In this document: positions 14,754 through 41,930 of the stretch, one piece after another
Layout of the letters: the number at the start of each line of letters is the position of its first letter
How positions within the stretch are numbered: the first letter of the stretch is position 1
From: Verrucomicrobiota bacterium
GTDB taxonomy: Bacteria; Verrucomicrobiota; Verrucomicrobiia; Limisphaerales; UBA8199
DNA length: 47,279 bases
Direction: 5' to 3'
NCBI GenBank assembly: GCA_029974925.1
Contig: JARKQH010000143.1
Location: 1 to 47,279, forward strand
Program-made: the position numbers and the translations under genes
Notes under the pieces: model-generated
The model's database searches: none
What the model was told of the DNA's origin: nothing
What the model saw: the letters and a program-made list of their open reading frames with translations, nothing else

Positions 14754-16217
14754 TCATGGCTTCCCCGAGGGTTTGGCATCCGGGGCGGGCGGGGACCAGG
14801 CGGCGGGTTTGGGGTTAGCCACCTCCAGTGGAAGGGTGTCGCCAAAGGCGCGCTGCTGTTCCTCGAGGAGTCGGCGCAGCCGGGCCAGGTTGTCCGCGAA
14901 CTCGGGCAGCGCGGACAGGTCCCGCAGCTCGTCGGGGTCCTTGTCGAGATTGAACAATTGGGTCTTGTTGATTTGCGGGTAGCGGATGAGTTTCCACTGC
15001 CGGTCGCGCACGGCGCGTTGGAAGCTGCGATAGGCGGTGAAAACAGAGTCGCGGACGGGGGCGGGACGTTCCGCGAAGAGCGGGGCGAGGCTGCGCCCTT
15101 CCATCTCGGGCAACATTGGCACGCCGACCAGCTCGGCCAGGGTGGGAAACACATCGAGCAAATAGCAGAAGGCGTCCGTGCGGCGTCCCTTGGGAATGCC
15201 CGGTCCGGCGAGGAGCAGCGGGACACGGACGGAGTGTTCGTACACGTTCTGCTTGCCCATCAGGCCGTGGCTGCCGATCGCCAGACCGTTGTCACCCGCA
15301 AAAGCCACCAGGGTGTTGGTTTCGAGGCCTCGCTCGCGCAGCGCCGCTAGCACCCGCCCGATCTGCTCATCCACATGGCTGATGCAGGCGTAGTAATCCT
15401 CGAGCTCGCGGCGGACCGCTTCGGGAGTGCGCGGCCAGGGGAGCAGTTTTTCGTCGCGGACCGTCATTTCGCCGTTGTCGAAGGGGTGCATGGGCGCCAG
15501 GTTCGCCGGCAGCGGCGGCGAGTGGGCGCGATAATAATCGTGCCAGGCCGGTGTGGCGGTGCGGGGATCGTGCGGCGACTTGAATGCGACGTAGCAGAGG
15601 AAGGGCTGGCCGTTGGTCTGCTCGCGCAGGAATTCGATGGCCGTATTGGCGAAAAGCTCGGTGTGATGCAACGGACTGGTGTGTTTGGGGCCCGGCCCCT
15701 GCCCTGCTTTGAAGTCCTGCACCGGCATGTTGTAGGCGGGCGACATGCCGCCGAAATAGGCGTTGCGGCCCTCCTGAAACGCCCGGACGGCCGACGCCGC
15801 GCCGTTGTGCCATTTGCCCGTCATGAAAGTGCGATAGCCGGCGCGGGCGAATTGCTCGGGCCAGGTGGTTTGGCCGGCGAGGTTATCCTTGACGCGAAAC
15901 AAGCCGCGGCTGGTCATGAGCATGGCGCGCGAGGGAACGCAGACCGCGCCCTGAAGGCCGCCCATGATGTAGGCGTGGGTAAAGGCCACTCCCTGGGAAG
16001 CCAGCCGATCGAGGTTGGGGGTGCGAATGTGCGGATTGCCCAGCGCCTGGATGGTGTCGGGCCGCTGATCGTCGGTGAAGAAGAAAAGCACGTTGGGTCG
16101 GGGCGATGCGTCTGCCGCCGGAACGGCGGCCGGCCCAACAGCGGGCGCAATCAGCCCCAGGACGATTAGTAACGTTGCCCTCACAAATGAGGATGGAGAA
16201 GGGATGTCGTTTTTCAT
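14754..16217 (-). CDS. Secreted type I sulfatase (formylglycine-dependent)
   Basis: The 487-residue protein has a signal peptide (residues 1 to about 37, with the hydrophobic core RATLLIVLGLIAPAVG). The sulfatase core starts at RPNVLFFFTDDQRPD, where D49 and D50 bind the metal. C93-V-P-S-R97 is the motif whose Cys becomes formylglycine. GKWHNG and the later FAGDNGLAIGSHGLMGK supply further active-site residues. It should remove sulfate from sulfated sugars in the periplasm or outside, but the substrate cannot be read from the sequence. The start at 16217 overlaps the stop of the sialidase-like gene as ATGA, so the two are translated together. The frame is open upstream, but that stretch lies inside the previous gene. 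Confidence 0.92.
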   Translation of the reverse strand: MKNDIPSPSSFVRATLLIVLGLIAPAVGPAAVPAADASPRPNVLFFFTDDQRPDTIQALGNPHIRTPNLDRLASQGVAFTHAYIMGGLQGAVCVPSRAMLMTSRGLFRVKDNLAGQTTWPEQFARAGYRTFMTGKWHNGAASAVRAFQEGRNAYFGGMSPAYNMPVQDFKAGQGPGPKHTSPLHHTELFANTAIEFLREQTNGQPFLCYVAFKSPHDPRTATPAWHDYYRAHSPPLPANLAPMHPFDNGEMTVRDEKLLPWPRTPEAVRRELEDYYACISHVDEQIGRVLAALRERGLETNTLVAFAGDNGLAIGSHGLMGKQNVYEHSVRVPLLLAGPGIPKGRRTDAFCYLLDVFPTLAELVGVPMLPEMEGRSLAPLFAERPAPVRDSVFTAYRSFQRAVRDRQWKLIRYPQINKTQLFNLDKDPDELRDLSALPEFADNLARLRRLLEEQQRAFGDTLPLEVANPKPAAWSPPAPDAKPSGKP

Positions 16218-18721
16218 TTGGTTGTTCGTGGCATTGTCTCGTCCGGTCCGAAGCGGAGTCTCTCGCGGAACCTTGCCCCGCTCCCGCCCGGGAACGGCCC
16301 GCCGCGAGGCGCGCGAGGGTACAGGATCGCCTCGAGATTTGGAGCCCAATTCCGCGCCTGCACCCGGTCGGCCAGCTCGCACACTGCCGCCCGCATATAA
16401 ACGCCTTGTGGCACGTCTGCCGGCTCCAAGCCGCTGAGGATGTTCTGTCGGTTGAATTCCTTGCCCGCCGGATTGTCCGCGAAACTCCCCTCCCCTGCCC
16501 CGGCGCGCCCGCTTGGGGCGATTGCTTCCACATAAGCACGGTCCGGGTTGAGCCGCACGAAGCGCGCGCCCGCTTTGCGGAAGCCCTCAACCTGCTCCAA
16601 AATGTGCGTGTGCGCCGGGTCGGCCTGGACGTGGTCCCTTTCGTTCGCGTAAACGATGACCGCCAGATGCGGCAGATTGCTGACAGCGGCCGGGATGCTG
16701 GGGGCCGCATCCCGCCAACTCCAAAACTCGCGGGCGTCGTCAAGCGACGGGATGTGAGCCGGGCGCCGGGACGGCAGCAGCCGGCGCTTTTCCGCCTCGG
16801 CCAGGATGCGCGGCGAATACCAGGCGCAAACTCCCCCGCCGGCGTCGCCGACAAAACAGTTGACGGGGAAATCGTCTTGCAACGAGAAGCGGCCGTCGCC
16901 GTTCAGGTCGAAGAAGAACGCGCCGCGCAGTTGGCCGGCCGGCGCCGGCATGGGTTTACGCATCAGGCCGGGGGAAAGGTCGGGCGACCAGGCAAGCGGC
17001 CGGAGGTCGAGCACGCCGCTTTCAGGATCGTAGGCCGGGTTCAGCCCGCTGTCGCGGCCGCCCAGTTCCACGTTGGCCGCCCCTTCGCCGTAGGGGGACT
17101 CCATCGAGGCATACCAGGCCAGGCCGGGCAGTTCGTGCCCATGCTTTGCCATCACCAGGCCGCAGGCATTTCCCCCGTGGCTTGATCCGACGATGCCGCA
17201 GTTGTTGGTCAGCACCTTCAGAGGCCCGGCCAGGTCGGTAATGCGCCGTTCATCCGCGTCAGCCGCCCGTCCCGTCGCGAACCGGATCACGTCCGCCAAG
17301 GCGCGGATGCAGGCCGGCCCGCGGAAATCGTAAGTGCCGCCACTGCGCTCGTCGCCATCGCCGCCCCCGGGAAAGGCGAAGTGGATTTGCACAAAACCGT
17401 CCCCAACGAATTCCGGGACGCCGCGCGCGCTGCCCGCCAGGACGCCGCCGGCAACCTGGACGACCACCGGCGCGCCATGCTCGTATCGGGGACGGGATGG
17501 AAACAGGACCTCGGCAGCGACACCCTGCCGACCGGCAGCCGCCGAGGGAATTCGCACAAGGACACGTCGAAAGTCCTGAGCCGAAGGAGGCCCACCCTCC
17601 CGGAAGGGGCCCTTCTCCGCCGGCGGGCGCAAGGGATTGCCGTCCCACCCGGCAGCCTCTTCCGTCCGCGGCGAGCCGGGAGCGGGCAAACGATACCTAT
17701 CGCCGGCGGGGCGTTGGGACAAGCCACGGCGCGGCGGACTGGTCGCCATGACCAGCCACGTTCCGTCCTGGAGCCGCACCGCGGCGGGATCGGCTCCTGG
17801 CACGTCGGGAACTCCGACGGGCTGGCTCCAGGAGAAGCCGTCGGGGCTGGTTGCCTGCCACAGGCCGCCTCCCCGGCCTGGCGGGCCGTCACCGGTTCCG
17901 AAAAAAGTGATCTCCTTGCCGTCTGATACCGCGTTGCCCAGCCAACGGCGGCCGTCCCCCACCCGCACATCCGCCGCCCGTTTGAAACTCAAGCCGTCCT
18001 GGCTGGTCGCGTGGTAGCCGGTACCCGGACGCGGGCGTTCCGCCCCTCGCGGCGGGGCGGGCTCGCCGGGGCCAATGCCCGCACCGTTATCCGGCGCATA
18101 GAGATGGTAAGTGCCCTGATGCAACACCACGGTGCAATCAATGACCGGGCGCCCCTCGATGGCGAACCGGACTCCCGGTTCCATCACATAGTCCACGCCG
18201 TTGGTCGAAATGGCCGAATAAATGCAGGGGTGGTGCAGGTCCGGACGGCGGCCTTGCACCGAGGTAAAATACAGTCGCACGCGCCCGTCCGGCAGCGGCA
18301 CCAGGGTCGGATCGAAAGGAAAGCGCATGCCTGGTGGAAGGCCTTCAAGGCTAATCACGCGCGGGGTGGTCCAGGTCCGGCCTTCATCAGTGGAAAACCG
18401 AACCGCCACTTTGTCGAAATCCGCTTCGCTATCAGCCGGGAAATGTTGGTGGGCGGCGAGCAAGCGGCCATCCTTCAGCCGAGCCACCGTCGCCACACCC
18501 GCCCGTTCGAACGTGGCCAGTTTTTGCGTCTGCCCGCCCGGGGACACCCGCCAGACGTCCACATCGCAATTCCAGGGACCCGGCTGTTGCCGTCGAGCCT
18601 GCGGCGGCGGCTCAGGAAACGCCGGTGCGCCGGCGAAGTCTGGCCGGTTGAGTCCCTGCGGCTGCCCCATGGCGGCTGACGCCGCCAAAAGGACCAGGCA
18701 AGTCGAGTGGGCCGGTGTCAC
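16214..18721 (-). CDS. Secreted fusion of sialidase-like beta-propeller and alpha/beta hydrolase
   Basis: The 835-residue protein has a signal peptide (about 1-19). Residues about 45-335 resemble BNR/Asp-box propellers (STDEGRTW 110-117, TSQDGLSF 239-246, TSPDGFSW 291-298). After a Pro-rich linker, residues about 385-835 look like an alpha/beta hydrolase with a nucleophile elbow, GSSHGG (512-517, Ser514), followed by an EF-hand-like loop (DLNGDGRFSLQDD) that may bind calcium. The propeller may bind or cleave sialic acid-like or other glycans, and the hydrolase may be an esterase. Neither activity is proven. The stop overlaps the sulfatase start, which suggests joint action on a sulfated and perhaps acylated glycan. 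Confidence 0.75.
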   Translation of the reverse strand: MTPAHSTCLVLLAASAAMGQPQGLNRPDFAGAPAFPEPPPQARRQQPGPWNCDVDVWRVSPGGQTQKLATFERAGVATVARLKDGRLLAAHQHFPADSEADFDKVAVRFSTDEGRTWTTPRVISLEGLPPGMRFPFDPTLVPLPDGRVRLYFTSVQGRRPDLHHPCIYSAISTNGVDYVMEPGVRFAIEGRPVIDCTVVLHQGTYHLYAPDNGAGIGPGEPAPPRGAERPRPGTGYHATSQDGLSFKRAADVRVGDGRRWLGNAVSDGKEITFFGTGDGPPGRGGGLWQATSPDGFSWSQPVGVPDVPGADPAAVRLQDGTWLVMATSPPRRGLSQRPAGDRYRLPAPGSPRTEEAAGWDGNPLRPPAEKGPFREGGPPSAQDFRRVLVRIPSAAAGRQGVAAEVLFPSRPRYEHGAPVVVQVAGGVLAGSARGVPEFVGDGFVQIHFAFPGGGDGDERSGGTYDFRGPACIRALADVIRFATGRAADADERRITDLAGPLKVLTNNCGIVGSSHGGNACGLVMAKHGHELPGLAWYASMESPYGEGAANVELGGRDSGLNPAYDPESGVLDLRPLAWSPDLSPGLMRKPMPAPAGQLRGAFFFDLNGDGRFSLQDDFPVNCFVGDAGGGVCAWYSPRILAEAEKRRLLPSRRPAHIPSLDDAREFWSWRDAAPSIPAAVSNLPHLAVIVYANERDHVQADPAHTHILEQVEGFRKAGARFVRLNPDRAYVEAIAPSGRAGAGEGSFADNPAGKEFNRQNILSGLEPADVPQGVYMRAAVCELADRVQARNWAPNLEAILYPRAPRGGPFPGGSGARFRERLRFGPDETMPRTTK

Positions 18722-22999: not shown

Positions 23000-24733
23000 T
23001 CACCGCTCCGGCCCAAAAAGGCTGAACTCGGTGAGGGTCGGGCCGTCAGTGGCTTCGGTGATGTTCAACCGCACCCGCTGCGCGGTGACCGGAGCAAATC
23101 GCGCCCGAAGTCTGGCCCCCGGCTTTTCTCCCTCGTAACAGGGGGTCCATTTGCCTTCGGCGAAGTATTCGATGGCGAACCTGCGGATGCGGCCCAGTTC
23201 CGGGTAGGCCTGCTTGATGACGGCGGAGTTGAAGGTGACCGGTTTGCCGAGGTCCACCTCGAGCCACGCCGCCTTCACGCCGGAATCGGTGGCCCAGCGG
23301 GTGGTGTCGGATCCATCCACGGCTTTGCCCGGTCCGTAGTTGGGTTCGTTTTTGTAGATGTTGGAGGCCGCGGCCTTGGCCCCCAGGGTCAACGGGACGC
23401 CTCCCGGAACCGCCACGGCGGGAAGGCTGCAAGCGGGGCCATCCAGTTCGAGCTTGACGATGGTGTCCAAGGGGTGGCGGTCGGCCTCGGCGACAAGAAC
23501 CTCAATGCCGTCGGCCGTTTGCCGGACTTTGGCCTCGCCTCGCGGCAGCACGCTGGCGCGCAAAATTCCGGCGGGGATGCGCGGGAGCCGAACCTTGCCG
23601 CCATCCCATTCCCGGATGTGGAGGTAGATGAAGTTTTCCTTGCGCGTCGAGACGCCGTAGTCGCCGGGTTTGAACGGTCCCCCGCGCGTGCCGTAGATGC
23701 TTTCGCCAAATTCGGAGAGCCAGGCGCCGATTTCCTTGAGGCGCCCGGCCTGATCCGGCGGAATCCTCCCATCCGGCATCGGCCCCACATTCAGAAGCAG
23801 GTTGCCATCGCCTCCCGCACAGCCCATGAGCATGGCCAGGCACTCCTCCAGAGATTTGACGCCGTCGCTGGGTCCGCCCCAAGCCCACTGATTGCGGGAT
23901 GACAGGGTCATGCACGATTCCCACGGTCGCTGGTCATCGTAAGCGCCCACTTCCTGTTCAGGAGTGTAATAATCCGCGTCGGGCGCGAGCATCTGGCGGT
24001 TGCTGCCGCCGGGGCCGAGGTCGAGCCGGTTGTTGATGACAATCGCCGGTTGGAGCGACCTCACCAGCCGGTAGGTCGCCGCCTGATCATACACCGGCTC
24101 GCGGCCGTCCCAGTCAAACCAAAGCAGGTCAATCCGGCCGTAGCCGCTGAGGAGTTCGCGGACCTCGGACTGCATCCGGGCCAGAAACGCCGGGTTGCGC
24201 TCGGTCCGGAAGTCCGGGTCACGCCAGTCCATGGGGGAAAAATACCATCCGATTCGCATTCCCTCGCGGCGGGCGGCGGAGGCCAGTTCCGCGCACACAT
24301 CGCGCTTAAAGGGTGTGGCGGCGATGTTGTAATCGCTGGCCCGTGAATGCCAGAGCAGAAAGCCGTCGCAGTGTTTGGCGGTCAGGACCAGGTATTTGGC
24401 CCCGCCGCGGCGGGCGATGTCCACCCACTCGGCCGCATTGAAGTTGGTCGGGTTGAATTCCTTGTAGAGGTTGTCATAGACTTCGGCCGGCATCGGCCCG
24501 CGGTTGGGGCACTTGGGGTTGGTGTTGGCCCGCGACCAACTGATTTCGGCGCCCTTCAGACTGACCGGTCCCCAGTGGATGAACATGCCAAAACGGGCCT
24601 CCGCCCACCAGCGAAGGTGTTCGGCATAGGGGCGTGGGAGGGAAGGCGCGGGGGACACTTCGGCGGCGTGTGTCAGCCCCAGGCTTGATGCGAGCACCGC
24701 CGCGGCAGCAATACCGTGAAGGGGGTTTTTCAT
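23000..24733 (-). CDS. Secreted GH29 alpha-L-fucosidase with F5/8-type C-terminal domain
   Basis: The 577-residue protein has a signal peptide (about 1-23). The GH29 TIM barrel covers about 36-360: FGMFIHWG (His53), KHCDGF (120-125) and IDLLWFDWDG with the nucleophile Asp207. DGNLLLNVGPMPDG is another GH29 hallmark. Residues about 365-440 form a beta domain. The end (about 440-577, ASNIYKNEPNYGPGKAVDG and WLEVDLGKP) is a discoidin/CBM32-like sugar-binding domain. It should release L-fucose from glycan ends. It is the last enzyme of a minus-strand set with SIS, MFS and ROK genes, 105 bases after the SIS gene. Confidence 0.93.
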   Translation of the reverse strand: MKNPLHGIAAAAVLASSLGLTHAAEVSPAPSLPRPYAEHLRWWAEARFGMFIHWGPVSLKGAEISWSRANTNPKCPNRGPMPAEVYDNLYKEFNPTNFNAAEWVDIARRGGAKYLVLTAKHCDGFLLWHSRASDYNIAATPFKRDVCAELASAARREGMRIGWYFSPMDWRDPDFRTERNPAFLARMQSEVRELLSGYGRIDLLWFDWDGREPVYDQAATYRLVRSLQPAIVINNRLDLGPGGSNRQMLAPDADYYTPEQEVGAYDDQRPWESCMTLSSRNQWAWGGPSDGVKSLEECLAMLMGCAGGDGNLLLNVGPMPDGRIPPDQAGRLKEIGAWLSEFGESIYGTRGGPFKPGDYGVSTRKENFIYLHIREWDGGKVRLPRIPAGILRASVLPRGEAKVRQTADGIEVLVAEADRHPLDTIVKLELDGPACSLPAVAVPGGVPLTLGAKAAASNIYKNEPNYGPGKAVDGSDTTRWATDSGVKAAWLEVDLGKPVTFNSAVIKQAYPELGRIRRFAIEYFAEGKWTPCYEGEKPGARLRARFAPVTAQRVRLNITEATDGPTLTEFSLFGPER

Positions 24734-24838
24734 AGGACTTGAGTCTGGCTCGCTCGCTGGAAAAAAGCGAGCCCTTCGGACGGAGGGGCTGGACGCCCTG
24801 CCCTGCGCGGTGGGGACGGGCAGACTGGGGGGAGACGG

Positions 24839-25606
24839 TCAGACGCCGGCGATGCGACGCTTGTATTCGGCCAGGGCGCTTTCGAGGCGTTCTTTCGCGG
24901 TGGTATCGCCGGGGACGTTGTGGGAGGGATGGATGTAGAGTTTGACGCCGCGGCCGGCCAGGATTTCGGCGACGGTGCAGACGGTCATCCAGACGCAGGT
25001 GACAAAGGCCATGGTGGACACGGGTCCGATCCGGTCCTGGTGGTTTTGGAGGGGGACGGTCGAGTCGCCGATGGGAGCGCACGTGTCCACGACCAGATCG
25101 GCGATATCGAAGATGGTCTTGCCGCTGGAATGACGGGTTTGTTTTCCCTTGGCGGCGGCGGCCGAACCGTAGGCGATGACCTTCATGCCGCGCTTTTTGC
25201 CCTCGAGCGCGACGTCAATGTTGACATTGTTGATGCCCGAGTGGGAGAAGATCCAGAGGCAATCGCGGGGATCGAAGGTGTAGCCTTTCATGATCTCGAC
25301 CCCGTAGCCCTCGACCCGCTCGAGGAACACGAATTGATGCACGCCCATCTCGCCGACAATCCGGGTGAAGAAGGTCAGGGGAAGCTCGACCATGGGATGG
25401 AAGCCGACAAAGCCGCCGATGCGGGGATACATTTCCTCGACGGGGAGGGTGGCGTGGCCGCAGCCGAAGGTATGCACCCACCGGCCGGCCTGAATCGAAT
25501 CGGCCATGACCTCGGCGGCGCGGCGGATGTTGTCCATTTGGGTTTGCTCGATGCGGTCCATGACCGTCCGGGCGTGGTGAAGCCATTGCGTGGCGAGATT
25601 ATTCAT
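24839..25606 (-). CDS. SIS-domain sugar-phosphate isomerase-like protein
   Basis: The 255-residue protein has a SIS fold: HTFGCGHATLPVEEMYPRIGG near the start (about 44-65) for phosphate binding, and WIFSHSGINNVNIDVALEGKKRGMKVIAYG (about 118-147) as the second SIS element. It resembles the UPF0309 group of sugar isomerase-like proteins. The likely substrate is an amino-sugar or other sugar phosphate made by the ROK kinase of the same operon. Its start overlaps the stop of the MFS gene by 8 bases. Confidence 0.8.
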   Translation of the reverse strand: MNNLATQWLHHARTVMDRIEQTQMDNIRRAAEVMADSIQAGRWVHTFGCGHATLPVEEMYPRIGGFVGFHPMVELPLTFFTRIVGEMGVHQFVFLERVEGYGVEIMKGYTFDPRDCLWIFSHSGINNVNIDVALEGKKRGMKVIAYGSAAAAKGKQTRHSSGKTIFDIADLVVDTCAPIGDSTVPLQNHQDRIGPVSTMAFVTCVWMTVCTVAEILAGRGVKLYIHPSHNVPGDTTAKERLESALAEYKRRIAGV

Positions 25607-26786
25607 GCGCAGGTTTGGATGACGATCGTTTCACTTGCCGCGTGACAAGAAACAACAGGAGGGCGGAAAAAGCCAGACAAACCAGCATGACCACGGTGTA
25701 TTGCTTCACGCCATGGACCTGGGCGACCGCGCCGAACGTTTTGTTAATGGTCATGTTTCCGATCAGCGCCAGGGTGAAGAGCATGCCAAAGGCCGTTCCG
25801 GACTGTTCGGGAAACAAGTCGCCCACGTAGCTTAGGACGATGGGAAAAGCCGCCGCCAGTCCCGCCCCGATCAGGAGCGCGGCGGTCAGGGCGGTGCCGT
25901 AGGCGGTGGACCCCGCCAGCAGAAGCGCGCCGGCCGCCGTGAGGCCGATCGAACTGAACAGCACTGCATCGGAGCGAACCCGCTTGAGCAGCCAGCTTAG
26001 CGCCAGCCGCGCCACCACCATCGCCGCCGTCACCGCCACCAATCCCAGCAGCGTCTTCCACTCCGCGGCGTGTTCTCCGCTCAAGGTCACCTTGCGGAAA
26101 TAGCGGGTCATCCAGTCGTTGGACATGCCTTCCATCCCGCTTTGTATCGCCAGCGCCAGGCCGGCGAACAGGAAGATGGGATGCTTCAGGAGGGCGAACC
26201 GGGCGCGGGGGGGCGCCGCGCCCCGTTGTTGTTTGGGCGGCGGGAAACCAATGGCCAGAAAATACGCCACTGGCAGGACGGCCACGGCGCCGATGCCGGC
26301 GACGATCGTCTTCAGCGCGAAATGATGCGAGAGCATCGCCAGCGTGCCGGGCATGCCGAGGGCGCCGATGCCGAAGAAAACGCCCAGCAGACTCAGCCGG
26401 GCGCCGCGCTCGCCTTCGCTGACATCCGCGGCGAGGGCGTTGGTCGCCCCGTTGAGCACGCCGCCCCCGAAGCCAATCAGAAAGACAAAGAATTGAATCC
26501 AGCCCCTCGTGGCGGCAAAAGCCATTCCCTCCAGCCCCGCCATGACCAGCAGCGCGCAGGCGGCCAGCAGCCATTTGTAGCCAAAGCGGTCCACGACCGG
26601 CCCGAAGACCAGCGAGCCGGCCAGAATTCCGAATGGCAGCAGCGCTGTGAGCGTGCCGATTTCGTTGTCGCTCAGGCTGAAACGGTCGGCCAGCATGTTG
26701 TTCACCGAGCCGAGCGAAAGGAAAACGATGCCGAACAGCAGCATGCCCAGGCAGGCGGCGGCAAAGACCCGGTTGCGATGATACAT
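25599..26786 (-). CDS. MFS transporter, sugar type
   Basis: The 395-residue protein has about 12 hydrophobic helices. The MFS signature between helices 2 and 3 reads FGPVVDRFGYKW (about 55-66). The loop and helix pattern fits sugar permeases of the FucP/GlcP type more than drug exporters, though this rests on operon context. It starts at the ATG at 26786, 10 bases after the ROK gene stop; the longer open frame upstream is out of register with any gene. It probably brings in the sugar freed by the fucosidase or sialidase-like enzymes. Confidence 0.85.
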   Translation of the reverse strand: MYHRNRVFAAACLGMLLFGIVFLSLGSVNNMLADRFSLSDNEIGTLTALLPFGILAGSLVFGPVVDRFGYKWLLAACALLVMAGLEGMAFAATRGWIQFFVFLIGFGGGVLNGATNALAADVSEGERGARLSLLGVFFGIGALGMPGTLAMLSHHFALKTIVAGIGAVAVLPVAYFLAIGFPPPKQQRGAAPPRARFALLKHPIFLFAGLALAIQSGMEGMSNDWMTRYFRKVTLSGEHAAEWKTLLGLVAVTAAMVVARLALSWLLKRVRSDAVLFSSIGLTAAGALLLAGSTAYGTALTAALLIGAGLAAAFPIVLSYVGDLFPEQSGTAFGMLFTLALIGNMTINKTFGAVAQVHGVKQYTVVMLVCLAFSALLLFLVTRQVKRSSSKPAHE

Positions 26787-26796
26787 GCGGGGGGTC

Positions 26797-27759
26797 TTAT
26801 ACAAATGGGTTTGACGATTGCCAAGCCAATCTTGCCGCGCCCAGCAGCCCCGCGTCGCCGCCGAGCGCCGAGCCGACCCATTCCACCTGCCGCATCGCCA
26901 CCGGTTGCGCCCATCGCGCGGCCTCGGTCTGAATCCGTTGCAGCAGCCGGAGCCCCGGTCCGAACACCCCGCCGCCAAACACAATGCGCTCGGGATTGAA
27001 CAAGCTCACCAGGTTGGCCACGCCCATGCCCCAGAATTCGACCGCCTGCTCGATCGCCCGCCGCGCGGCTGGATCGCCCTTTTCCCAGGCCGCGAACACC
27101 TCCTGAGCCGATTCAAAACCCGGCGCCTGCGTCCCGCCGCGCGGTGTTCGCCCCTGTTTCTTTCGGAGTTGCGATGCGACGCGGGCCAGTCCGGGCCCCG
27201 AAGCATGCGCTTCAAAACAGCCGTGAATGCGGTACTGGGGCTGGAATGGCCGGTCCAGCGCCATCCAGCCAATCGAGCCGGCAATGCCTGCCGCGCCGCG
27301 CAACACCCGCCCGTCGCACAGGATGCCCGCCCCGATGCCCGTCCCAACCGCAAGGTAGATGGCGTTGCGGCATCCCCGCGCGGCCCCACGCCATTGCTCG
27401 CCCAGGATGTAGCAGATGCGGTCACTTTCCATCTCAACCACCACCGGCCGGCGCCGCAGCGCGGACCGGACCTCGGACCGCAGCGGATAGCGGGTCCAGC
27501 CGGGGATGTTGGGCGCCCACACTCGCCCCGTTCTCTGATTGCTGATGCCCGGGACCGCGATGCCAACGCCGAAAAGCTCCTCCCCTTCCGTTCGAACGAC
27601 ATCCTCCAGTGCGCGCAACAGCCGCCGGATCAGCCCGCCCACCGCCCCGCCGGTCCGGCCTGCCAGCGCGGCTTCCTGCCGGTGCAGCACCTGCCCGCGC
27701 CGGTTGACCACCGCACCGGCCAGTTTCGTGCCGCCCAGGTCCAAAGCGATGACACGCAT
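26797..27759 (-). CDS. ROK-family sugar kinase
   Basis: The 320-residue protein has the ATP-binding motif ALDLGGTKLAGAVV (5-18), the hinge AVGTGIGAGILCDGRVLRGAAGIAGSIGWM and the ROK end GGDAGLLGAARLA. The usual N-D-A-N is E-S-D-R here, keeping the Asp. The zinc motif C-x-C-G-x-x-G-C is largely lost (RIHGCFEAHASG keeps only the last Cys), so metal binding is doubtful. It likely phosphorylates a hexose or N-acetylhexosamine. It lies three bases after the HemW-like gene and 10 before the MFS gene. Confidence 0.87.
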   Translation of the reverse strand: MRVIALDLGGTKLAGAVVNRRGQVLHRQEAALAGRTGGAVGGLIRRLLRALEDVVRTEGEELFGVGIAVPGISNQRTGRVWAPNIPGWTRYPLRSEVRSALRRRPVVVEMESDRICYILGEQWRGAARGCRNAIYLAVGTGIGAGILCDGRVLRGAAGIAGSIGWMALDRPFQPQYRIHGCFEAHASGPGLARVASQLRKKQGRTPRGGTQAPGFESAQEVFAAWEKGDPAARRAIEQAVEFWGMGVANLVSLFNPERIVFGGGVFGPGLRLLQRIQTEAARWAQPVAMRQVEWVGSALGGDAGLLGAARLAWQSSNPFV

Positions 27760-33546: not shown

Positions 33547-35709
33547 ATGAAGACCGTTCTTTTTGTCTGCACCGGAAACATCTGCCGCAGCCCGATGGCT
33601 GAAGGCCTTTTTCGGCGGGCGGTGGCCGGCCAGAATGACTTCCAGGCCATGTCGGCCGGGTTGGGCGCGGCCAACGGTCAGCCTCCCAGCGCGTTCGCGG
33701 TTGAGGCGGTCAAGGAACTGGGCATAGACATTTCGAACATCCGCAGCCGCATGCTGACGCCCGACCTGGTTCAGGCGGCGGATTACATCATCGGCATGAC
33801 CCACAGCCACGTGGACAGCATCCTGCTGCTGTACCCGCAGGCGGCCGAGAAGACGTTTCTGCTGCGCGAATTCGACGAAACCCTCGAGCTGTTTGAGAAG
33901 GACATCAGCGACCCCATCGGGGGCTCGTACCAGGTCTATCTGAATTGCCGGGATCAGATCGAGCAAGGCATCGTCTCCCTGCTTCGCTTTCTGCGCCAGG
34001 GCGCCCAGGCCCCGGCCGGCGCCGCGCATGCGACGAAGGTCGCCCTCGGGGCCGATCATGGCGGTTTCGAGCTCAAAGAGGCCCTCAAACAGCACCTGCA
34101 GAACCGCGGCATCGCCGTGACGGACTTTGGCACGGCCTCGAAGTCATCGGTGGATTACACCGATTATGCCCAGGAGGTGGGCCGGAGCGTTGCGGAGGGC
34201 CAAAGCGCTTTCGGCGTCCTGGTGTGCACCACCGGCATCGGCATGAGCATCGCCGCCAACAAGATTCCCGGCGTGCGCGCCGCCCTGGTTCACGATGAAA
34301 CAACCGCGTCGCTCGCCCGGCGGCACAATGACGCCAATGTGCTTTGTCTCGCCGGCTCCCAGATCAAGCCCGACGAGGCGGCCCGCATCCTCGACACTTT
34401 CCTCACCGCCCAGTTTGAGGGCGGGCGGCACCAACGACGAATTGCTAAAATGGAAAATCGCACTTTGCCCCCCGAATTGAAACTTCAAGCCGTTGACCCG
34501 GAAATCGCCGAGGCCATTGAGCACGAGCGCCTGCGGCAGCAGGACAATATCGAGCTGATCGCGAGCGAGAACTTCACCAGCCCGGCCGTCATGGCCGCCC
34601 AGGGTTCGGTCTTGACCAACAAGTACGCCGAAGGTTACCCGCGAAAACGGTGGTACGGCGGCTGCGAAAACGTGGACACCGCCGAGCAACTGGCCATTGA
34701 CCGCGCCAAGAAGCTCTTTGGCGCCGAGCATGCCAACGTCCAGCCCCATTCAGGCAGCGCGGCGAACATGGCTGTCTATTTCGCCTTTCTGAAGCCCGGC
34801 GACAAGATGCTCACCATGGACCTCAGCCATGGCGGGCATTTGACGCACGGGAACAAGGCGAATTTTTCGGGCAAGTTTTTCGATATTGTGCATTACGGGG
34901 TTAGCCAGAGTGATGAACAGATTGATTACGAACAACTTGCCAAGCTGGCGCGAACACATCGCCCGAAGATGATCACTGTGGGCGCCAGCGCCTATCCCCG
35001 GATCATAGACTTTGCCCGCATGGGAGAAATTGCGCGCGAGGTGGGCGCCTATCTGCTGGCGGATATTGCGCACATTGCCGGGTTGGTGGCGACGGGCCTG
35101 CACCCCAGCCCGGTCGGCCATGCGGACTTTGTGACCACCACCACGCACAAAACCCTGCGCGGGCCGCGCGGCGGCCTGATTCTGTGCGGCGAAAAGTATG
35201 CCAAAGAGATTGATTCCCAAGTGTTCCCGGGAATTCAGGGCGGGCCTTTGATGCATGTGATCGCGGCGAAAGCCGTCTGCTTGAAGGAAGCCAGCCAGCC
35301 CGCCTTCAGGCATTACCAGGAACAAATTGTCCGAAATGCCCGCGCGCTGGCCGAAGGCATGAAACGCAACGGCTTCCGCCTGGTCAGCGGCGGAACCGAC
35401 AACCACCTCATGCTGGTGGACGTCGGGGCCCGCGGACTCACCGGGAAGGAATGCCAGATTGCCCTGGATGAAGCCGGCATCACCGTGAACAAGAATACCA
35501 TCCCGTTTGAGACCCGGTCCCCCTTTCAAGCCAGTGGCATCCGCCTCGGCACCCCGGCTGTCACCACTCGGGGCATGAAAGAGCCGGAAATGGCGGCGAT
35601 TGCCGACATGATCAGCGAAGTGCTCCTGGATATTAAAAACGTTGACACGCTGGCCAAAGTGCGGCAACGTGTGCGTGACTTAACTGCAAGATTTCCCTTG
35701 CCGTATTGA
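33547..35709 (+). CDS. Uninterrupted LMW-PTP / RpiB / GlyA reading frame, 720 aa
   Basis: Three complete enzyme domains lie in one frame with no stop. Residues 1 to about 150 are a low-molecular-weight protein tyrosine phosphatase (C8-TGNIC-R14, acid Asp122-Pro). After a short Ala/Pro/Gly linker (about 151-163), residues 164-301 are ribose-5-phosphate isomerase B (ADHGG 169-173, [14 protein letters not shown] with Cys227). Residues 302-720 are serine hydroxymethyltransferase (THKT with PLP Lys535). Met302 (ATG at 34450) sits where a separate glyA would start, so GlyA could also be made alone by internal initiation. A PTP-RpiB fusion is plausible for this group; joining GlyA is the surprising part. 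Confidence 0.9.
34450..35709 (+). CDS. glyA: Serine hydroxymethyltransferase (possible independent start)
   Basis: The ATG at 34450 would give a 419-residue GlyA of normal length: ELIASENF, the PLP-site motif [14 protein letters not shown] with Lys (residue 234 of this product) and a C-terminal domain typical of the family. It interconverts serine and glycine with tetrahydrofolate and supplies one-carbon units. This entry overlaps the 720-residue fusion frame; which form is made cannot be settled from sequence. No Shine-Dalgarno sequence precedes the ATG, but most starts here lack one. Confidence 0.75.
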
Positions 35710-39761: not shown

Positions 39762-40112
39762 CTACGATGCCTCGCCCGGCTTGAGCAGCGTTAGCAGCAT
39801 GGAAAACTGGCGCGTCGCCTTCAGGGCATGAGGCGCATGGGCCGGCAGGTAAAGAAAATCGCCGGCTTTAAGATTGTGCACCTTCCCCGAGACGGTGAAT
39901 TCGCATTCCCCGGATAACACCTGGATCATCGCCTGCTGGGTCGAGGTGTGCTCGGTCAGCTCCTGCCCTGCTGCGAACCCGAACAGCACCACCCGGACGT
40001 TGGGTCCGCGCAGCAGGGTTCGGCTGACGATGCCGTTGGCCGCGTATTGCGTCTCGGCGGGCAGCGAAACGACCTGGGCCTGTGTGATGTCAATTAACGG
40101 TTGCTCACTCAT
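39762..40112 (-). CDS. Small cupin-domain protein
   Basis: The 116-residue protein is one cupin barrel: LFGFAAGQELTEHTSTQQAMIQVLSGECEFTV is motif 1 with the metal His/Glu pattern partly kept (EHT...Q), and LKAGDFLYLPAHAPHALKA is motif 2 with His. Such proteins bind small molecules or metals; no substrate can be named. It sits alone between rpe and a divergent secreted protein gene. Confidence 0.8.
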   Translation of the reverse strand: MSEQPLIDITQAQVVSLPAETQYAANGIVSRTLLRGPNVRVVLFGFAAGQELTEHTSTQQAMIQVLSGECEFTVSGKVHNLKAGDFLYLPAHAPHALKATRQFSMLLTLLKPGEAS

Positions 40113-40199
40113 GTCGTTACTTTAAGCCTGACACATCCTGGCGGTTTTGATATGAATCAAGACAATGACTGTTTCCCGAAGCGAGCGGAGATTCTTTTT

Positions 40200-41930
40200 A
40201 TGGCTGCGCGGAGCAAAATGATTTTGGCGGCGGGGCTGGTTTGCCTTGTGGCGGGCTTGATAATCGAGTGCGGGCTGGTCCGGGTTCAGGGGATGCCGGC
40301 GCTGCACGTGGTGTTCCCGCTGGGGGCGATTCTCTTGGGGGTGTACCTGGTGGCCCGCACTTTTGGGCTGGCGTGCCTGCTCTGGCTGCCCCTCGCGTCG
40401 TTGGGGGCCGCCGTTCCGGCCCGGGAAATCCCGCCGGCGTTCGGCCCTTATATCAACCTTTCGCCCCGCGACTTCGCCGAGGCCACCAGCTTTAAGGAAA
40501 CCGACCGCATCGTGGGCACCTACTACTTTTACTGGTACAACATCCATACGGGCGAACACATCACCAATCCCCAGAATGGGAGCGACGGGCTGACGGACCA
40601 TCCGCCCACCCTGGAGGATTTTTCCTATCTGTCGGTGCGCTGGCACAAGCGGCAGTTCAGCGACATGGAGGACGCGGGCATAGATGTGGCCCTGCCGGTT
40701 TTCTGGGGGGCGCCGTCCGAGCGCGACCCGAAGGCGTCCCTGCATTGGAGCTACGCCGGCCTGGGGCCGATGGTTCAGGCGCGCGAGGAACTGGTGCGCG
40801 AGGGCAAAAAGCCGCCGCGGCTCGGCTTGTTCTATGACACCAGCACCCTGCAATACAACGCCTGGCATGTGCATGTGGACCTCAAGACCGATTTTGGCAA
40901 ACGCTGGTTTTATGCGACGGTGCGCGATTTCTTTTCAGCGATTCCGCCCAAACACTGGGCTCTGATGGATGGCAAGGCGGTGGTGCTGCTGTATTCCGCC
41001 GCCTTCGCAAAAGACCACGATCAGGGCTTTGTCGAGTTCACCCGCAACCAGTTCCGGCAGGAGTTCGGCGGGCACGAGCTCTATTTCGTGCCGCAGGACT
41101 CGTGGCGCGTGAAAGGCGACAACGTGTGCGCGTGGGGCGGGGCCCTGGGGCTGAAGAATCCAGGCGTGGCGGCCCTCGGCCCCGGCTATGACGACACCGC
41201 TGTTTATGGGCGCAAACCGCTCGTTCGAAAACGCGAGGGTGGGAAGTTTTACGAAGACAACTGGATGCGCTTTCTGCGCCGGCCGTCAAATTTCGTGATG
41301 GTGGAGACGTGGAACGAATTTCACGAGGGCACCACGGTTTGCGAAAGCCGGGAATATGGCCGGCAATACATCGAGCTGACGCGCAAGTATTCGGACCTGT
41401 TCAAGCAGGGCTGGGTGCCGGCCTGGCCCAAAGGCCGCTTTTCCGATGCGCGCCGCGTCACCGCGACTCCGCTCGGTGACGCCACGACCGGAGGTTTGAC
41501 GCTCGTGCCCCACGAGGATGGCCAGGTGCGGCAAGCCGAAGCAGGCGGAAGTGTCTGCTGGCAAATCCAGCCGTCTCCCGGCCACGGGACTTACGTTTAC
41601 TTCCGCGTGGACGATTCCTTCAAGAATGCGGCAGGGATGGACCTGGACCTGGTGGTGGAGTACTTCGACGCCGCTGCGGGGAGGTTGAATGTCGAATACG
41701 ATGGGCCGGACAAGTCCGCCCCCTTCAACGGCGCCTACAGCCGATCCCAGGCCGTTCCGTTGTCAGGCGACAAGCAGTGGAAAACCGCCACCTTCAAACT
41801 GGCCGGCGCCCGCCTGATGAATGGTCAGAACAGCGGGGCCGATTTGCGGCTGGTGGTCGAGGCGGGGGATTTGGGCGTCCGCAAGGTCACTCTATGCAGA
41901 ACCGATTCCATTTCGGAGTCTGGACGGTGA
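40200..41930 (+). CDS. Secreted or membrane-anchored DUF5010-like putative glycoside hydrolase
   Basis: The protein has 576 residues from the ATG at 40200, which has GGAG about 13 bases upstream; an in-frame ATG at 40152 is possible. Residues 7-75 hold two to three hydrophobic stretches, the last like a signal peptide ending ...LASLGAAVPA. The catalytic-like part (about 80-410) has VGTYYFYWYNIHTGEH, VALPVFWGAPSERDP and VETWNEFHEGTTV, typical of DUF5010/GH99-like TIM barrels. The C-terminal part (about 430-575) looks like a carbohydrate-binding beta sandwich. The 3' end overlaps the aminopeptidase gene by 37 bases. Confidence 0.7.
   Translation: MAARSKMILAAGLVCLVAGLIIECGLVRVQGMPALHVVFPLGAILLGVYLVARTFGLACLLWLPLASLGAAVPAREIPPAFGPYINLSPRDFAEATSFKETDRIVGTYYFYWYNIHTGEHITNPQNGSDGLTDHPPTLEDFSYLSVRWHKRQFSDMEDAGIDVALPVFWGAPSERDPKASLHWSYAGLGPMVQAREELVREGKKPPRLGLFYDTSTLQYNAWHVHVDLKTDFGKRWFYATVRDFFSAIPPKHWALMDGKAVVLLYSAAFAKDHDQGFVEFTRNQFRQEFGGHELYFVPQDSWRVKGDNVCAWGGALGLKNPGVAALGPGYDDTAVYGRKPLVRKREGGKFYEDNWMRFLRRPSNFVMVETWNEFHEGTTVCESREYGRQYIELTRKYSDLFKQGWVPAWPKGRFSDARRVTATPLGDATTGGLTLVPHEDGQVRQAEAGGSVCWQIQPSPGHGTYVYFRVDDSFKNAAGMDLDLVVEYFDAAAGRLNVEYDGPDKSAPFNGAYSRSQAVPLSGDKQWKTATFKLAGARLMNGQNSGADLRLVVEAGDLGVRKVTLCRTDSISESGR

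Follow-up and report, generated by a model that had tools for sequence, protein, structure and literature searches.

A propeller-hydrolase fusion gene overlapping a sulfatase gene in a Verrucomicrobiota contig: a candidate enzyme of decorated-polysaccharide processing

What would a bacterium do with a single protein that carries a beta-propeller at its N terminus and an alpha/beta hydrolase at its C terminus, and whose gene runs into the start of a sulfatase gene? The question is raised by a minus-strand locus in a 47,279-nucleotide stretch of DNA (the window), contig JARKQH010000143.1 of the Verrucomicrobiota bacterium assembly GCA_029974925.1. An initial annotation had regarded the locus as a small machine for a sulfated, acylated or sialylated glycan. 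Our analysis found that the frame is continuous, that both domains fold confidently in models, that candidate residues in them are conserved, that the stop overlaps the start of the sulfatase gene, and that in other genomes the hydrolase is recurrently paired with carbohydrate-type domains. From these observations we infer, with rather more confidence than doubt, a two-domain, probably exported glycan-processing enzyme that would act together with the sulfatase on a decorated polysaccharide. The earlier idea of a polysaccharide-processing role stands as the most economical reading; its sialidase component does not.

The joining of the two domains in one 835-residue protein was borne out by the frame and by the fold models. 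The 835-codon minus-strand open reading frame (ORF; 16214-18721) has no internal stops, and along nearly its whole length G+C content is high at third codon positions (GC3) and low at second positions (GC2). A block within the linker (residues 331-380) is rich in Pro, Gly and Arg and has GC1/GC2/GC3 values of 0.74/0.72/0.76; because these residues push up G+C at codon position 2, its composition is uninformative on frame. Neither of the two alternative linker frames contained a signal peptide, a start region or a propeller tail when read. On both sides of the linker, strong matches to proteins of other genomes run in frame, covering residues 35-342 at 54-62% identity for the propeller and residues 365-819 at 57-71% for the hydrolase (56% in genome G266), and two more distant propeller relatives (G078 and G072) match at 43-44%. 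Close relatives as a whole show 54-63% identity to the propeller and 53-70% to the hydrolase. Since both halves match real proteins in frame, the ORF is not a chance open frame. The frameshift in the linker that the initial annotation had named as the sign of two separate proteins was looked for and not found, and we rejected the two-gene reading on the continuous frame and the reading of the alternative frames.

In a metagenome contig, a faulty assembly or a frameshift that escaped detection could still have fused two separate genes. The fusion was seen in one genome only, and that genome is a draft of 487 contigs, of which the whole window is one (completeness 97.6%, contamination 4.4%). We nevertheless consider such an artifact very unlikely, since frame and composition are continuous, the linker holds no leftover stop in this frame and no second-gene start or signal peptide in any frame, the two halves share a contig on which the sulfatase overlap is preserved, and one relative (locus L098) carries both families in adjacent overlapping genes. 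Residues 1-19 are signal-like, and secretion of the fusion protein is likely; because the stretch has no basic n-region, export is not secure.

Structure prediction of the two halves with AlphaFold2 (AF2) retained a propeller fold for the first (pLDDT 79, pTM 0.81, from 4 alignment rows). Its 19 strands make five blades, the last of which is completed by the first two strands at the N terminus (a count read off the strand list); in the propeller alignment A5, two distant rows (28% identity) are partly misaligned. The best structural alignments from VIA-align, at Z scores of 19-22 with many tied, were to glycoside hydrolase (GH) family 43, GH32/68-type fructan enzymes, GH130, GH159, GH117 and the GalNAc deacetylase of Flavonifractor plautii; some of these family names are what we take the matched structures to be. 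Against the GH43 structure 8hcj_C, the propeller aligned over 236 residues with a Z of 21.7 and a root-mean-square deviation (rmsd) of 3.2. The GH43 family PF04616 was matched neither in the fusion protein at E<=0.1 nor among the 17 propeller members at E<=1. The F. plautii deacetylase (6n1a/6n1b) aligned over 255-256 residues (Z 20.1, rmsd 3.7-3.9, 17% identity) and was not matched by the propeller sequence profile in the PDB.

The propeller had originally been called sialidase-like, and one alternative reading would be a true GH33 sialidase fused to a sialate O-acetylesterase. Foldseek does list sialidases first (E 1e-10, TM 0.50-0.56), the propeller sequence profile reaches PDB sialidases at 9e-9, mostly over the first Asp-box blade, and Pfam gives a weak BNR_2 match. 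The fusion protein holds three SxDG/SxNG-x-x-aromatic motifs where 0.06 were expected, and the Asp box STDEGRTW (0.0045 expected in shuffles) is its single canonical one. A FRIP motif, which we take to mark sialidases at the start of the propeller, is absent from that position, the nearest sequences being YRLP at 343 in the linker and VRIP at 389 in the hydrolase. We weighed blade count and motifs above the Foldseek and profile matches and read the sialidase signal as the shared BNR repeat. With five blades rather than six, no FRIP, one canonical Asp box, and VIA-align favouring GH43-type folds at Z 20-22, a GH33 enzyme is extremely improbable, and sialidase identity was rejected in spite of the Foldseek ranking.

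The hydrolase half was modelled with higher confidence (pLDDT 88, pTM 0.90, from 23 rows). Its core aligns to 7qjn (Z 18.9 over 236 residues), to the ferulic acid esterase 7z2v (Z 18.7) and to the tannase 4j0g (Z 18.6 over 263 residues); because comparable scores are reached by many unrelated proteins of the superfamily, the alignment gives the fold and not the substrate. Although a GxSxG motif is unsurprising by itself (0.65 expected), GSSHG lies on a modelled strand-helix turn, and the position of Ser514 is Ser in 21 of the 23 rows, with Glu in L102 and Asp in L103. The candidate acid after strand 7, Asp696, is invariant (23/23), so that an esterase-type nucleophile and acid are both in place. 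Also conserved are His704 and His706 (23/23 each) and His697 (22/23, Gln in L102). When strands were placed by DSSP on the model, no catalytic His was found after the last core strand (strand 8), where Asn725 is invariant, and no His is conserved past 706. Because the residue after the last strand is Asn725, the base is probably one of His697, His704 and His706. The calcium-like loop of the initial annotation was recovered as DLNGDG (residues 605-610; 0.04 expected in shuffles) within the lid of the hydrolase; a DxNxDG-like loop is widely kept among the 23 rows and is degraded in L098.

The two relatives lacking the nucleophile Ser come from Melainabacteria/Obscuribacterales (L102, 7971-9266, with Glu for Ser and Gln for His697; L103, 7842-9182, with Asp for Ser). 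Their hydrolases may be pseudoenzymes or carry out another chemistry.

The overlap noted between the fusion stop and the sulfatase start was found as ATGA, with TGA at 16214-16216 and an ATG at 16217 that is likely the true sulfatase start; the listed start, GTG 16382, merely gives the longest frame. Searches against PDB sulfatases reached a best E of 8.4e-45. The whole domain is shared with S1 sulfatases (for example PDB 6hr5, 5g2v and 7p24), as is the motif CVPSRAMLMTSR, which we take to be of the formylglycine type and in which residues 93-97, CVPSR, have the CxPSR form. The proposed translational coupling stands as anatomy, in the stop-start overlap, but not as a conserved pairing. In the order-level sample, 108 of 240 genomes matched the sulfatase at E<=1e-100 (the window's own included), the best relative being 67% identical (G009, same family); among the matches listed at that threshold, none lay on a contig with a propeller or hydrolase relative, the window's contig apart. 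Around the four top matches no such relative was found at E<=1e-4, and only 2 of 47 locus records (L095 and L036; seven contigs are counted twice) held a sulfatase match at E<=1e-6. We therefore rejected the sulfatase as a conserved partner of the fusion, on the relatives' contigs among the matches listed and on their neighbourhoods; the overlap in the window is real and was not seen elsewhere.

Searches for the same fusion elsewhere found the two halves apart and the fusion itself only in the window genome. When the whole protein was searched against the order sample, 29 of its 245 genomes matched: 14 with strong propeller-half matches (E<=3e-47), two with the hydrolase half (G227 and G055), the window genome, and 12 with weak BNR-type matches. 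The phylum sample gave 44 matching genomes of 387 (three hydrolase, one propeller, the window genome and 39 weak), and the hydrolase half was matched by six of 384 in the class sample (two strong, three weak and the window genome). The family sample returned the window genome alone (1/13). No match in the family, order, class or phylum samples spans both halves besides the window's own. A pattern scan with the hydrolase alignment across 84,980 species genomes yielded 25 loci, seven of them on contigs already met in the sample searches, in Verrucomicrobiota, Lentisphaerae, Planctomycetota, Acidobacteria, Sumerlaeia, Armatimonadota, Melainabacteria/Obscuribacterales and others. The 23-row alignment leaves out L108, L110 and L111, which are partial or irregular matches among these loci, and both families leave out weak matches (BNR, E 1e-9 to 1e-3; hydrolase, E 5e-5 to 5e-4). 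There was no match in a single-sequence search of genome contigs, in viral contigs queried with alignment A2, in plasmid and phage collections, or in the PDB by single sequence. Literature searches returned, within their own reach, no report of this fusion.

Trees of the two families differ in where they leave the window protein. The hydrolase tree (23 rows) groups it with L098, L088 and L089 (support 99/99), while no supported set of the propeller tree contains it; because only the hydrolase tree groups the window with support, a common history of the halves is not shown. Kinship and the names of related organisms put the window in Verrucomicrobiota, class Verrucomicrobiia, and the sources given in the records of those relatives suggest a lake-type genome. 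The closest hydrolase relative, L088 (1-4100), lies on a contig named Betaproteobacteria and is nested within a verrucomicrobial clade, a position that mis-binning or transfer could explain.

The hydrolase recurs with changing partners. With the window included, 5 of 26 loci fuse the hydrolase to a carbohydrate-type domain, while the rest either stand alone, run off the end of a contig or could not be resolved; only the window joins it to a propeller in one protein. In L088 it follows two deacetylase-like domains in one protein. In L098 it follows one such domain, and its gene immediately follows, and overlaps by ATGA, a gene encoding two propellers. It is fused ahead of GH39 in L091 (Pfam GH39, 78.2 bits) and L096 (by 60% identity); in L090, a deacetylase-like stretch starts about 28 bp past the hydrolase stop, and in L095 two sulfatase genes follow downstream. 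The second deacetylase-like domain of L088 scores 26.2 bits for PF01522 (cut-off 23.1) in the whole protein and 21.3, below the cut-off, when scanned alone. The first has no Pfam match alone, and its L090 relative has a sub-threshold one only (E 0.091), so its name is tentative. Some propeller relatives stand alone at about 420 residues (L035, L036, L041 and L044), one is joined to the first deacetylase-like domain (L087), and several sit in frames of 1118-2199 residues with more propellers or NHL repeats. A BD-FAE esterase gene follows the propeller in L035 and L036, which belong to one genus, and a BD-FAE fragment lies about 2 kb upstream of it in L042; either finding may reflect chance adjacency of the esterase. 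The recurrent hydrolase partners and the ATGA pair of L098 support a joint function in decorated-polysaccharide processing.

Deacetylase-type domains also serve the export and trimming of bacterial exopolysaccharides, and the relatives with two such domains could point to remodelling of the cell's own surface or exopolysaccharide in place of feeding on foreign glycans. We regard this as unlikely, because some relatives have as neighbours GH39, sulfatases and a gene that by eye looks GH38-like, and because the window itself encodes, at a distance of about 4-9 kb, an alpha-fucosidase, an MFS (major facilitator superfamily) transporter and a ROK kinase; all of these point to catabolism.

In design, the nearest known counterpart is BeGH43/FAE of Bacteroides eggerthii (PDB 6MLY), whose solved structure has an N-terminal five-bladed GH43 domain and a C-terminal tannase-like feruloyl esterase (PMC7815789). 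The window fusion resembles it in placing a five-bladed propeller ahead of an alpha/beta hydrolase, putatively an esterase, on one polypeptide. BeGH43/FAE differs in the beta-sandwich between its domains and in its triads, Asp-Asp-Glu in the GH43 domain and Ser-His-Asp in the esterase. In the window fusion the hydrolase lid carries a calcium-like loop, the usual position lacks a His and the neighbouring gene encodes a sulfatase; PDB searches by single sequence and by profiles gave no sequence match between the two. Glycosidase and ester-removing modules also share one secreted protein in the GH62-CE6 arabinofuranosidase/acetyl-xylan esterase of Ruminiclostridium, which differs in drawing on other enzyme families and in being cellulosomal, with a dockerin and CBM6 (PMC6556953). 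By analogy, the window fusion plausibly works like these two enzymes, although it is built from uncatalogued parts and is not shown to belong to GH43, GH33, the tannases or any carbohydrate esterase (CE) family.

Under the reading of a glycan-processing enzyme, the N-terminal propeller would hold or cut a sugar unit, the C-terminal hydrolase would release from the same polymer an acyl group bound as an ester, such as an acetyl or feruloyl-like group, and the sulfatase, translated from the shared message through the stop-start overlap, would remove sulfate. Joining propeller and hydrolase would bring deacylation and sugar recognition or cleavage together on one molecule, as in BeGH43/FAE. Several findings weigh against this account: the fusion was seen in a single genome, its link to the sulfatase is not conserved, sialidases head the Foldseek list, the hydrolase has no His after its last strand, and the hydrolase family is not uniformly catalytic, because 2 of 23 relatives are without the nucleophile Ser. 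The propeller does not demonstrably carry the catalytic residues of any known glycosidase, and, judged by repeat position only, the first-blade acid of GH43 seems to be missing, with RAGV in its place.

It is this last absence that favours a different division of labour, in which the propeller would bind sugar and direct the esterase to its target without catalysis of its own, leaving only the hydrolase and the sulfatase to act. The propeller family also sits in the large, adhesive- or structural-looking frames with multiple propellers and NHL repeats described above. But Arg73, Asp137, Asp195 and Asp311 are invariant in 17/17 rows at equivalent positions of blades 1, 2, 3 and 5, which we read as central-channel strands, and single-domain propellers of about 420 residues exist. 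Catalysis by the propeller is thus possible on conservation, and a purely binding role seems to us rather unlikely, though it is the most serious of the alternatives.

Pfam gave no family for the window hydrolase and only stray matches in single relatives (best E 0.011), NCBIfam none for the fusion protein or L089, and the hydrolase profile only two chance-level matches in the PDB. Because it has no Pfam or NCBIfam model yet is repeatedly joined to carbohydrate domains, the hydrolase family is a concrete candidate for a new CE family. The main interest of the locus lies in this family and its changing partners; the fusion itself is real, and a bifunctional polysaccharide enzyme is plausible. 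Because the fusion shows which two activities belong together, it narrows the search for a substrate.

The carbon in sulfated and acylated polysaccharides is considered to turn over slowly, and Verrucomicrobiota are described as rich in enzymes for such polysaccharides (PMC5615132, PMC8857213). Tentatively, and as a possibility short of an expectation, we suggest a modular set in which two unclassified families, a five-bladed propeller acting as glycosidase or N-deacetylase and an esterase whose catalytic His is non-canonical, are combined with two deacetylase-like domains, GH39 and sulfatase. Freshwater and groundwater bacteria of several phyla would rearrange these parts, now as fusions and now as overlapping genes, to degrade the decorations of a single shared N-acetylated, O-acylated, partly sulfated polysaccharide, and the window would hold the merged propeller-esterase variant. 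Coordinates of all features are collected in Table 1.

Table 1. Features of the fusion gene and the overlapping sulfatase gene, in window coordinates.
Feature	Residues	Position	Strand	Basis
Fusion gene, propeller + hydrolase, 835 aa		16214..18721	minus	GTG start, TGA stop; relatives of both halves in frame
Signal-peptide-like hydrophobic stretch	1-19	18665..18721	minus	weak; read by eye from sequence
Five-bladed beta-propeller	48-329	17735..18580	minus	AF2 model, fold matches, 17-row family
Canonical Asp box STDEGRTW	110-117	18371..18394	minus	single; loose form in 17/17 rows
Pro/Gly-rich linker	330-383	17573..17734	minus	no frame break
Alpha/beta hydrolase with lid insertion	384-835	16217..17572	minus	AF2 model, fold matches, 23-row alignment
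Nucleophile elbow GSSHG (Ser514)	512-516	17174..17188	minus	Ser in 21/23 rows; strand-helix turn in model
Calcium-loop-like DLNGDGRFSLQDD, inside lid	605-617	16871..16909	minus	first Asp in 22/23 rows, Glu in the other
RDHVQADPAHTHI: candidate catalytic acid Asp696 with conserved His697, His704, His706	695-707	16601..16639	minus	23-row alignment
ATGA overlap, fusion stop / sulfatase start		16214..16217	minus	TGA 16214-16216, ATG at 16217
S1-type sulfatase, 487 aa		14754..16217	minus	PF00884 170.9 bits (cut-off 25), PF16347 69.5 bits, both above cut-off
Formylglycine-type motif CVPSRAMLMTSR	93-104 of sulfatase	15906..15941	minus	sulfatase sequence

Among the propeller relatives, the stand-alone gene of L041 (4624-11302) overlaps a gene for a large two-component sensor of the hybrid type, whose domains are PAS, GAF, HATPase and receiver; this is possibly a link to polysaccharide sensing. 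In L091 (3790-5418), L040 and L043, propellers adjoin or are fused to a secreted-looking protein that has a conserved 'VGGHVCPIDHGYFYP' region; the L091 protein has an EF-hand, and Pfam gives it no other family.

Within the window, a same-strand cluster at 23000-27759 (minus), upstream of the fusion and not adjacent to it, encodes an alpha-L-fucosidase with F5/8C, a SIS-domain sugar isomerase, the MFS transporter and the ROK kinase, and is one of sugar catabolism. Downstream of the sulfatase, beside short truncated-looking ORFs, lies a UPF0236-type protein (PF06782; 12156-13469, plus), which we take to be likely a transposase-like element. A protein with DUF5010 and a weak GH99 match is encoded at 40101-41930 (plus). 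A second fusion, of 720 residues, joins a low-molecular-weight phosphatase, RpiB and serine hydroxymethyltransferase (33547-35709, plus), and 9 of 12 same-family relatives match all 720 residues without a stop.

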